Source: Candidatus Thiodiazotropha endoloripes
Lineage (GTDB): Bacteria > Pseudomonadota > Gammaproteobacteria > Chromatiales > Chromatiaceae
DNA: 64,000 nucleotides
Assembly: GCA_001709035.1 (NCBI GenBank)
Contig: LVKA01000021.1
Location: 186,001 to 250,000, forward strand
Direction: 5' to 3'
This document shows, piece by piece, positions 29,030-31,944 of this stretch. The notes under the pieces are model-generated. The model did no database searches, was not told where the DNA came from, and was given only the letters and a program-made list of their open reading frames with translations. Positions within the stretch are counted from its first letter, which is position 1. Each line of letters starts with the position of its first letter. A program made the translations under genes and the position numbers.

Positions 29030-29718
29030 TCGCCAGACGACGACATTATTTCGCCAACATTCAGAGTTATGAGCTTTTGCCTCACCCGATCAGGATCAAT
29101 ACCGATCTCTCTCGCCCAGGTTTGAATGTTATCGACTGACTCGACGCCATAGAAGTAAAGATCCACCGGTTTAGACGTCGCCTTTGCCAGGGTTGGCGCT
29201 ATTCGCTTGTAACAAACAGACTCAATATCGCAGGGAAGCGTGATATTAACCCGCTTTCTTTGGTGCTTTACCTTCTTCGTTTTCGCAATGGCTGGGGCTC
29301 CTTCATAAAGAGGCGCATTCGGATAGAGCTTTGCGTACTCAGCCAAGTAGGCTTTTTCAAAGGCGCGTTCACGCACAAGTCGATTGTGCTCGATGATGGC
29401 CAATCGTCGAGCATAGTGTTGACGCTCCTGAACTGACTCAGCATTGATTCCGAGTACCTGCAATGGACTCAGGTTTGGCGTCCAATTACCACGAGGGCCT
29501 TTCATGATGCGCTGATATCGCTCAGTCTCGGTCTCACTCAGTCCCCAACCATCAAACCCCATTGCCTCTGCATTAACAGCGGTAGAGTTGAGATTTGATA
29601 TTTCAACACCGGTTTGTTTGACCTCATCACCATACGAGATCGAAAAAAAAGTGGCGCTCAGGAAGAACGCCAAAGCACGGGTGGAGGTCGAGCAAAATGA
29701 AGAGAAATAATTAGTCAC
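29026..29718 (-). CDS. Conjugative element protein, PFL_4693 family (TIGR03759)
   Basis: This 230-residue exported protein is read here from the GTG at 29718, which overlaps the pilL stop and leaves a normal signal peptide (MTNYFSSFCSTSTRALAFFL). A longer frame to 29781 runs inside pilL. The mature part with WGLSETETERYQRIMKGPRG, LSPLQVLGI and CDIESVCYKRIAP is typical of TIGR03759. Periplasmic; role in mating-pair formation inferred from context. Confidence 0.8.
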   Translation of the reverse strand: MTNYFSSFCSTSTRALAFFLSATFFSISYGDEVKQTGVEISNLNSTAVNAEAMGFDGWGLSETETERYQRIMKGPRGNWTPNLSPLQVLGINAESVQERQHYARRLAIIEHNRLVRERAFEKAYLAEYAKLYPNAPLYEGAPAIAKTKKVKHQRKRVNITLPCDIESVCYKRIAPTLAKATSKPVDLYFYGVESVDNIQTWAREIGIDPDRVRQKLITLNVGEIMSSSGE

Positions 29719-30349
29719 GACACTGGCCTCGTTTGTTGTATGCGTGGGGGTAACACCAATAAACACGCTGAGGCCAGGCAACCGTCATATCACGTGAGAT
29801 GGTTTTACAGTTGTGGCTGAGAGAGAGCGGATAAATCTGTTCAGACTTCGTTTCTGATTCTTCGAAACCCAGGAGTTTCAGGCCATTGTGTGGCCCAGAT
29901 TTGGTGACAATAGGATCGTCTTGGTAGGGATAAGGTAATTCAAATGAAACCATCCTATGAACAGGATCGACCACCAGCAACCAAGGATTCCCTGCAATGA
30001 TCGCGAGCGATTCCATAACAGAGAAATGCTTGAGAGATCGTTGGTGCTGGGGCAGCCTTGCATCGAGCAACACACGAATTTCTGGATCCGCGGTAAAGCC
30101 CTGCGTCAGGGTGTAGCTGGTACCGGCAAGCAGATCCTTCATTGCACGCTCAACGGTTAGAGAGTCGGGTGCAATACGCCCCATTGGGGCCTCTAGCGGA
30201 TTAATCTGGCCAGGAGAAGGCGGGGCTTTCCGATAGCCTGTGTACCGAGCGTCACGGTCTGTTACAGCAGCGACGTCATCCAATCCGTGAGACAGGCAAT
30301 CTTGTGTAACAATTACTGCGAACAACAGCATCAAAACGTTTACTCTCAT
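29711..30349 (-). CDS. pilL: PilL-like protein (PFGI-1-class element)
   Basis: This 212-residue exported protein has a signal peptide (MRVNVLMLLFAVIVTQDCLS), then a short domain with MKDLLAGTSYTLTQG, LDARLPQHQRSLKHFSVM and ESLAIIAGNPWLLVVDPVHRMVSFEL, similar to TIGR03748 PilL and STN/secretin-N-like folds. It is the first gene of the conjugation operon. A 744-base noncoding region with an intrinsic terminator at 30464-30488 lies upstream, so its expression depends on read-through or a promoter downstream of that terminator. Confidence 0.75.
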   Translation of the reverse strand: MRVNVLMLLFAVIVTQDCLSHGLDDVAAVTDRDARYTGYRKAPPSPGQINPLEAPMGRIAPDSLTVERAMKDLLAGTSYTLTQGFTADPEIRVLLDARLPQHQRSLKHFSVMESLAIIAGNPWLLVVDPVHRMVSFELPYPYQDDPIVTKSGPHNGLKLLGFEESETKSEQIYPLSLSHNCKTISRDMTVAWPQRVYWCYPHAYNKRGQCRD

Positions 30350-30463: not shown

Positions 30464-30488
30464 AAAAAAGGCCAGCGAAGCGCTGGCC
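30464..30488 (-). terminator. Intrinsic terminator upstream of pilL
   Basis: The minus strand reads GGCCAGCG-CTT-CGCTGGCC followed by TTTTTT (+ strand stem 30470-30488, A-run from 30464). An eight-base perfect GC-rich stem with a T-run is a textbook Rho-independent terminator. It lies about 115 bases before the pilL start. Confidence 0.8.
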
Positions 30489-30684
30489 GGGATGGAAATC
30501 ACGTCAGGCCATGCGAATTCAATTAGCCGTCAGCTCGATTAAAGAAAGGCCTTTGCAAAGGTTCTCGCTACAACCCATTCGCATTCGATCTGATTTAAGC
30601 CGGACAGATCAATCGAGAAGGCACGCTAACTGCGTACAAAGGGTGCCGCGTAAATTCCGGCCACGGCGACCGGCTTTGCTGAAA

Positions 30685-30742: not shown

Positions 30743-30971
30743 ACGTAGCTGTAAGGGGCACCGAAGGGTAAAAAACCCTCCGGTGCTTATCGTTGAAGAT
30801 AACGCTTCACGGGCGTCTTAATAAACCAGGATTATCTTGTCGGAGATACCTGGTATCAACACCCAACCCGAAGGTTCGACCGTATTTTCAGGGTGCGGTT
30901 ACAGTCTTGGGTGCGGCAAGGCCGCTATGGTGCACCAATATACCGAGGCGCGGCGGTATGAAATCCAGTTC

Positions 30972-31000
30972 AGTATAACCTTGATATGACAATGCTTGAA
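30972..31000 (-). promoter_or_regulatory. Putative promoter of the pilL-upstream RNA
   Basis: On the minus strand TTCAAG (30995-31000) and TATACT (30972-30977) are 17 bases apart. The -10 fits 5 of 6 consensus bases and the -35 only 3 of 6. Predicted start is just before the pseudoknot. Confidence 0.4.
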
Positions 31001-31030
31001 CCATCTAAAAAAGATATTGATCAATACTGC

Positions 31031-31060
31031 AAAAAAAAGCCCGCACTCAAGAGTGTGGGC
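31031..31060 (-). terminator. Intrinsic terminator after DUF3577 gene
   Basis: The minus strand reads GCCCACACTC, a short loop, GAGTGCGGGC, then eight T (+ strand A-run 31031-31038). The ten-base stem has one mismatch. It lies 34 bases past the stop of the DUF3577 gene and separates it from the RNA-like region below. Confidence 0.75.
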
Positions 31061-31093
31061 TTTCTTCAAGGAAATATGATATTTCCAATAGGT

Positions 31094-31705
31094 TTATGAC
31101 TCAGACGGCATCTGGATGTTAACAGAATAACTGCCAGGCAATCCTTGTCCGTCTGTCACAGGAGAGTGGCTGTACGCATTACCATTTATGGGGCCACTAG
31201 TGGTCTCTGAATGGGCTTGGTCAACTTTATCGGATTCTGAACTCGCTTCCTGCTGATCAGCTGAAACTGCTGCAGGCGTTTGGTCGTCATCCTTCGCTCC
31301 TTCAGTATCGGATGGTTGGGGAGCGGAGTAAACAGTTTTTCCATCTACTTTGACCCACATGATCCGAAGTAACCGGCCTTTGAGGGTGACACGCAACTTA
31401 CCATCCTTTTCGTAAGGTTCGTCTGGGTACATATCACCAATATTGAAACCGGCAAGAACTTTGTGTTCCTTATCATTAATAACATCTTCAAATTCCTGGA
31501 TGACTTTCTCTGACTCTGCGCCAGTTGCTTTCACATCAAAGAAAACATAAGAAATGGCATCACGAGGACCATGAAAAGCAGAAATTGATACCGCCCAAAA
31601 CGGTGTGAACCGTTGGCCTGCTTTTGGTTTGACTTCACGGGCTCTGCCCAAATAACCAAGGCCAGTAGTGTGCAGATCAAAATACAGATTGTTGGAAGTG
31701 CTCAT
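31094..31705 (-). CDS. DUF3577 family protein of conjugative elements
   Basis: This 203-residue protein reads LYFDLHTTGLGYLGRAREVKP at the N-terminus, typical of DUF3577, then FDVKATGAESEKVIQEFEDVI and VTLKGRLLRIMWVKVDG. An acidic, Ser/Glu-rich tail starts at about residue 140. The start at 31705 is supported by AGGAG eight bases upstream; the frame extends to 31756 without need. Role unknown, but the family is a fixed part of the PFGI-1-class maintenance region. It has its own terminator and, probably, a promoter at 31915-31944 with a structured leader. Confidence 0.8.
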   Translation of the reverse strand: MSTSNNLYFDLHTTGLGYLGRAREVKPKAGQRFTPFWAVSISAFHGPRDAISYVFFDVKATGAESEKVIQEFEDVINDKEHKVLAGFNIGDMYPDEPYEKDGKLRVTLKGRLLRIMWVKVDGKTVYSAPQPSDTEGAKDDDQTPAAVSADQQEASSESDKVDQAHSETTSGPINGNAYSHSPVTDGQGLPGSYSVNIQMPSES

Positions 31706-31816
31706 AGTGAATCTCCTAATTAATCGAAAAAAATCAGAAGACGCACCAATGCCCACAAGGGATGGTTTGTCCCCTGAGGGTTGAGTGATGTGGAAAGAAC
31801 TCCCGCTTTAAAAGCG

Positions 31817-31893
31817 CCAAGTCTGATGGAGCGATGACTTGGTGGGTGCAGCAAGTGCTGCAGTTGTATCCATATACCGGGATACGTCGGTAA
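31817..31893 (-). ncRNA. Structured leader RNA, second copy of pseudoknot element
   Basis: Minus strand: TACCG (31888-31892) pairs CGGTA (31875-31879) and GTATCC (31880-31885) pairs GGATAC (31866-31871), an H-type pseudoknot. The GCAGC-ACTT-GCTGC hairpin follows at 31848-31861, then CCAAGTC/GACTTGG (31817-31823, 31836-31842). The order of helices and their spacing equal those at 30860-30960 while most paired bases differ. It lies in the 5' leader of the DUF3577 gene, about 110 bases before its start. Confidence 0.55.
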
Positions 31894-31914
31894 GAAAATC
31901 GCTTTACAATTAAA

Positions 31915-31944
31915 TTAGTAGCTGATGACCACAGTATCTGTCAA
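31915..31944 (-). promoter_or_regulatory. Putative promoter of the DUF3577 leader
   Basis: Minus strand: perfect TTGACA (31939-31944), 18-base spacer, TACTAA (31915-31920). Predicted start is about 15 bases before the pseudoknot. The -10 is weak. Confidence 0.5.

Follow-up and report, generated by a model that had tools for sequence, protein, structure and literature searches.

The window analyzed here is the whole 64,000-nt stretch of DNA, and every feature described below lies on its minus strand. A gene encoding a DUF3577 protein, an STY4534-like protein of integrative and conjugative elements (ICE), is preceded by one structured element (copy 2) and followed by another (copy 1), and pilL2 lies 3' of copy 1. 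The features, in 5' to 3' order, are as follows.

31914..31944, minus strand: promoter-like boxes 5' of copy 2, TTGACA (31944-31939) and TACTAAT (31920-31914); by eye, weak
31866..31892, minus strand: copy 2 pseudoknot PK1; S1 TACCG/CGGTA (31892-31888 / 31879-31875), S2 GTATCC/GGATAC (31885-31880 / 31871-31866)
31847..31862, minus strand: copy 2 hairpin P3, TGCAGC/GCTGCA
31799..31842, minus strand: copy 2 pseudoknot PK2, of radC-type topology; S1' CCAAGTC/GACTTGG, S2' GCTCC/GGAGT; inner hairpin CGCTT-tta-AAGCG (31816-31804) between the 3' strands of S1' and S2'
31745..31780, minus strand: copy 2 pseudoknot PK3; outer stem CCC/GGG, inner stem CAGGGGA/TCCCTTG; loop ACCA (31766-31763) with TGGT (31748-31745)
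31705..31748, minus strand: hairpin sequestering the Shine-Dalgarno (SD) sequence, TGGTGcGTCTTCTGATT (31748-31732) with AATTAGGAGATtCACTA (31721-31705)
31717-31713, minus strand: DUF3577 SD, AGGAG, hidden with the start codon by that hairpin
31094..31705, minus strand: DUF3577 gene (PF12101, E=8.4e-35)
30972..31000, minus strand: promoter-like boxes 5' of copy 1, TTCAAG (31000-30995) and TATACT (30977-30972); by eye, weak
30932..30959, minus strand: copy 1 PK1; S1 ATACCG/CGGTAT, S2 GCGCC/GGTGC
30913..30925, minus strand: copy 1 P3, GCGGC-ctt-GCCGC
30859..30906, minus strand: copy 1 PK2, including hairpin AACC-ttcg-GGTT; S1' GACTGTA/TACGGTC (30906-30900 / 30884-30878), S2' GCACCC/GGGTGT (30896-30891 / 30864-30859)
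30621..30673, minus strand: third PK1 with hairpin; CCGGT/GCCGG, GCCGTG/CGCGGC, GTACGC/GCGTGC
30470..30488, minus strand: strong intrinsic terminator between copy 1 and pilL2
29711..30349, minus strand: pilL2, conj_PilL-like (TIGR03748, E=8.1e-12, below cut-off)

The DUF3577 protein also matches STY4534_fam (NF040584), below the family cut-off. Copy 2 sits 134 nt 5' of the gene. None of 1000 dinucleotide-preserving shuffles matched PK1 plus P3 of either copy, and the same result (0/1000) was obtained for PK2 of copy 2 and for the third PK1 with its hairpin. PK2 of copy 1 was matched by 8 of 1000 shuffles.

A preliminary description, made from sequence alone, had reported two minus-strand copies of a pseudoknot with a five-base hairpin, flanking the DUF3577 gene. 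The copies and all of the helices named for them were confirmed in place. They are better described, however, as leaders of DUF3577 and (probably) of the pil operon than as a chance flanking pair. The wobble in copy 1 (GGTGC), from which a minus-strand RNA had been inferred, is a G-C pair (GGCGC) in the Ca. Thiodiazotropha taylori relative L002, as expected of such an RNA. The motif GATTT does precede both copies. The claim of promoter-like hexamers before both is weak: a scan for promoter consensus sequences listed neither set of boxes. By eye, several of the copies that precede integrase genes (e.g. L088, L034 and L087) also have a TATACT-like box at the equivalent position. As for the longer stems, CCAAGTC/GACTTGG of copy 2 stands and forms S1' of PK2, whereas CACCCAA/TTGGGTG of copy 1 is probably mispaired. 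The pairings GACTGTA/TACGGTC and GCACCC/GGGTGT are better supported; they give the topology of the CCAAGTC/GACTTGG domain of copy 2, which is common to the homologues. Overlooked in that description were PK2 with its radC topology, PK3 near the ribosome-binding site, the hairpin hiding the SD and start codon, and the third PK1 copy (30673-30621).

Copy 1 was checked for PK3 and the SD hairpin, and this platform was found for copy 2 only. The next annotated start past PK2 of copy 1 is that of pilL2 (30349), about 510 nt away. A 15-bp inverted repeat, CCTACGGTCTTCCCG / CGGGAAGACCGTAGG (window 30742-30690, minus strand), sits in noncoding DNA 3' of copy 1 and 5' of pilL2, and recurs in L002 with one change.

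A leader family with covarying helices

Of 274 genomes sampled from the class, 14 contain DUF3577 relatives, and a descriptor scan around them recovered the same helix arrangement in several, often repeated. Seven copies found beside other DUF3577 genes were used to build a covariance model (R1). At E<=1e-3 it matched 17 of 369 genomes sampled from the class. A single genome has as many as seven copies, and many copies lie around DUF3577. Almost all DUF3577 loci recovered within the order have the leader or a variant of it. Across the phylum, a search with R2, the other model of the family, matched only 1 of 299 genomes; at that sensitivity, therefore, this is mainly a family of this class. 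The genes 3' of the leaders encode DUF3577, RadC, DUF932, DUF3275, an SNF2-type helicase and integrase, and in most cases, for DUF3577 and other genes alike, 115-192 nt separate leader and gene.

Searches outside these loci were less productive. Plasmid nucleotide searches with the noncoding DNA as query gave no match, and PK1 was not significant when R2 was run on ten named DUF3577 plasmids. PK3 was present in nearly all of these ten, and radC-type leaders in two (L097 and L098). A consensus-pattern search of the window's own genome yielded only the two copies as convincing; two of the near matches were inspected and lacked the structure.

Helices of the family vary in sequence and keep their pairing, as the preliminary description had proposed on the basis of two copies. 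In 45 distinct sequences (alignment A4), pairing in S2 of PK1 reaches 99.3%, and each of its six pairs has changed on both sides. P3 is 86.7% paired, and five of its six pairs show both-side changes. S1 of PK1 hardly varies and includes a conserved U-G, read on the sense strand. No shuffle of 500 reached the whole-structure covariation score of this alignment. The wobbles, U-G in S1 and G-U in S2, fall on the sense strand of the target gene. After P3, most elements carry PK2, in which the loop of a stem pairs with a strand past the next hairpin. S1' and S2' are 100% paired in alignment A7, as is S2' in A6. Members of these alignments were chosen for carrying PK2, and the evidence is the covariation of the helices, not the 100%.

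The contig of L002 is nearly identical to the window downstream of mid-DUF3577. We rejected this identity as evidence of constraint because it spans coding DNA, i.e. reflects recent common origin. The identity jumps to about 98-100% from mid-DUF3577 downstream (window 31330-29000) and is much lower upstream. Such an abrupt change is a mosaic that could reflect recombination.

Do the window copies belong to this family? Their R1 scores are poor and not significant (11.7 and 10.0 bits), the top R1 match in the window being the third PK1 (11.9 bits, likewise not significant), and the R2 search did not list the copies. Membership therefore rests on position, architecture and bridging forms. Copy 2 has the helix order of the family before DUF3577, at a distance within the typical range. 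Copy 1 lies upstream of pilL2, at the place matching that of copies upstream of integrase-pilL2 in L078, L079, L081, L087, L088 and L092; the integrase is absent from the window there. The family trait of a PK3 and an SD hairpin that share a strand is seen in copy 2 only. L115 and L116 bridge the window form and the consensus form; in L115, S1 is ACCC/GGGT, intermediate between CCGU/GCGG of the consensus and ACCG/CGGT of the window. These data make it likely that the window copies belong to the family, despite their poor model scores.

Some members (L029, L030, L031 and L037) have an extra hairpin directly 5' of PK1 (CTTTCC..GGAAAG, GTCTGTC..GACAGAC, TCTCTCC..GGAGAGA). It appears to covary, and a terminator-like hairpin often precedes it.

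Two exclusive pairings at the ribosome-binding site

A G-rich/C-rich hairpin is located 3' of PK2 and ahead of the start codon, and its loop pairs with the next strand downstream (PK3). This same strand also opens a long hairpin that hides the SD and the start codon. In the window, the 5' arm of the sequestering hairpin starts with TGGT, the strand used by PK3. The hairpin was matched by 2 of 2000 shuffles, and in the predicted fold 11.4 kcal/mol is needed to open the SD. PK3 alone is modest here (69/2000 shuffles), and the two structures jointly were matched by none of 2000.

We surveyed this platform in 40 leaders, including those of the ten named plasmids and three radC leaders. At p<=0.05, the SD hairpin was supported in 22 and PK3 in 26, against 2 expected, and the two overlap by at least 2 nt in 24 of the 40. 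Since the surveyed helices were picked for complementarity, the permutation tests used stems chosen without it. The match between PK3 loop and 3' strand was better within a leader than between leaders (3 of 10,000 permutations). The same was true of the anti-SD arm and the start region, with the SD core left out (0 of 10,000). Because some of the surveyed leaders are related, the permutation counts should not be read as strict probabilities. These data show that the two pairings at the ribosome-binding site are mutually exclusive and that both covary across species. A conserved, covarying RNA leader stands before many genes of these elements and ends in two exclusive pairings at the ribosome-binding site.

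Relation to radC RNA and other known systems

A scan of the window against Rfam 15 at gathering thresholds gave zero matches, and no plausible family emerged from a search of the leader region at E<=10 or from a scan of six homologue loci at permissive E-values. Matches to Thr_leader, rnk and isrD were rejected as terminator hairpins, below threshold. The statement in the preliminary description that no known riboswitch or ribozyme consensus is present thus holds against Rfam 15, but the leader is partly related to radC RNA. That description had named two outcomes that would refute its proposal and could be checked here, a lack of homologues with covarying pairs and a match to a known Rfam family; neither was found. 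Its proposal of a new RNA class tied to this conjugative element is supported in amended form, as a multi-copy leader of PFGI-1-class conjugative elements.

radC RNA (RF01754) was reported in 2010 (Weinberg et al. 2010, PMC2864571), and is among the families whose database structure is without covarying pairs (Rivas 2020, PMC7657543). The RF01754 model (criterion >=40 bits) found no match in the window or the six homologue loci, permissive E-values included. It does find matches in genome G262, repeated along an element of the same type, one of them just 5' of DUF3577. The leader family and radC RNA have in common the PK2 topology, a stem whose loop pairs past the following hairpin, and the niche, namely 5' UTRs of conjugative-element genes. 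Some radC members also have the PK3/SD platform, with PK3 matched by 0/100 shuffles for L041 and 3/100 for L043. In contrast, the place of PK1 and P3 is taken in radC RNA by a nested 5' hairpin (CAUG..GCUGAC-GUCAGC..CAUG), and radC RNA apparently has two modules of the PK2 type. Because the radC model fails and the radC 5' hairpin is absent, we do not file the leader family as radC RNA, although we consider the two likely to be related. The leader is absent from the Rfam library and is, we propose, a new form related to radC RNA; that it was named in the 2017 survey is not excluded. In the literature searched, we found no function for radC RNA or for these leaders; the 2017 Weinberg survey (224 candidate RNAs) was outside our coverage.

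In four radC RNAs (L040-L043) there seems to be an unannotated loop pairing, CGAUC/GAUCG, past the next hairpin, together with a second similar module. The pairing varies to CGGUC/GACCG in L042. This S2' pairing of radC RNA was read by eye.

Two other systems invite comparison. In the leader pseudoknot switch of repZ/repA in IncI/IncB plasmids, a loop pairs with a strand beside the ribosome-binding site and prevents an SD-sequestering structure, in that case for a plasmid replication gene. That switch serves one gene and involves an antisense RNA and a leader peptide, whereas the leader described here is repeated before many genes and has two further pseudoknots upstream. The mechanisms are alike by analogy, and no homology is claimed. 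Riboswitches of the preQ1 class I type likewise control translation from a 5' leader by means of a compact H-type pseudoknot, but our leaders have no Rfam riboswitch match and precede mobile-element genes rather than metabolic ones.

A putative translational switch and its alternatives

We infer that copy 2 is likely a cis-acting leader of the DUF3577 mRNA and a translational switch common to genes of the element; we have no transcript, probing, reporter or ligand data. From 5' to 3', PK1, P3, PK2 and PK3 would be followed by the ribosome-binding site. Pairing of the UGGU strand (31748 onwards) with the PK3 loop would leave the SD free, and pairing of the same strand with the SD and start codon would hide both. 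PK1 and PK2 may sense or bind a shared signal, be it a protein, an RNA or a small molecule, and so bias the choice. The hiding hairpin makes the longer helix, which is why OFF is the probable default of the full-length leader. Since the same leader stands before many PFGI-1-class element genes, it would coordinate them. Copy 1, upstream of pilL2, would in this scheme consist of nothing but the sensor part. It lacks PK3, no gene start follows for about 510 nt beyond PK2, and a terminator does follow; it may therefore work as a separate RNA or at the level of transcription, by way of the terminator at 30488-30470 rather than through translation.

We considered four other explanations. According to one, the 5' pseudoknots act on RNA polymerase (attenuation or antitermination, put- or EAR-like), such that operons are read through terminators. 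The terminator between copy 1 and pilL2 is in line with this, as is the position of many copies elsewhere directly after a G+C-rich terminator-like hairpin. Yet most leaders precede one small gene, for which no intervening terminator is needed, and the covariation in the SD hairpin and PK3 favors control of translation, so we regard this as unlikely. It also seems improbable that the leader is merely a protein-binding operator, with an element protein repressing or stabilizing the mRNA and the SD hairpin alone exerting control, without a two-state switch. Its presence before many different genes of one element, like a regulon tag, would fit. But simple occlusion would not require the covariation seen between the PK3 loop and the anti-SD arm, and no candidate protein has been identified. 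A third possibility, which we doubt, is that copy 1 and the third pseudoknot together make up an independent noncoding RNA, about 490 nt long, which titrates a leader-bound factor. The DNA from about 30965 to the terminator at 30470 is noncoding, contains PK1 twice and has no gene start nearby; however, a matching copy elsewhere precedes integrase and pilL2, and copy 1 may be a leader that lost its first gene. Least likely by far is that the structure acts in single-stranded DNA during transfer, as an origin or a promoter of the Frpo type. Elements repeated ahead of early-transfer type genes (RadC, DUF932) recall leading-region promoters, but the wobbles fall on the sense strand, where a folded template strand would put them on the other, and the structure extends into the ribosome-binding site and covaries with it.

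If the leaders are indeed translational switches, a single RNA-level control governs many genes of a widespread class of conjugative elements, RadC, DUF932 and integrase among them. The leaders would offer a concrete, testable output, a strand choosing between a decoy loop and the ribosome-binding site, and the shared signal would become searchable with a simple reporter. A bolder reading, which we hold to be slightly less likely than not, is that the leader, radC RNA and the other structured DUF3577 leaders form one superfamily of translational switches setting many genes of PFGI-1-class and related elements with a single signal, and that lineages swapped the sensor and kept the SD decoy platform.

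Two further observations concern DUF3577 loci. Plasmids of Shewanella, Aliivibrio and Vibrio (L099, L103 and L105) have other structured DUF3577 leaders, without PK1 and with the same 3' platform. Multiple DUF3577 genes were seen in genomes G247 and G772, one with three copies of identical match scores and the other with four genes, i.e. several related elements in one genome.
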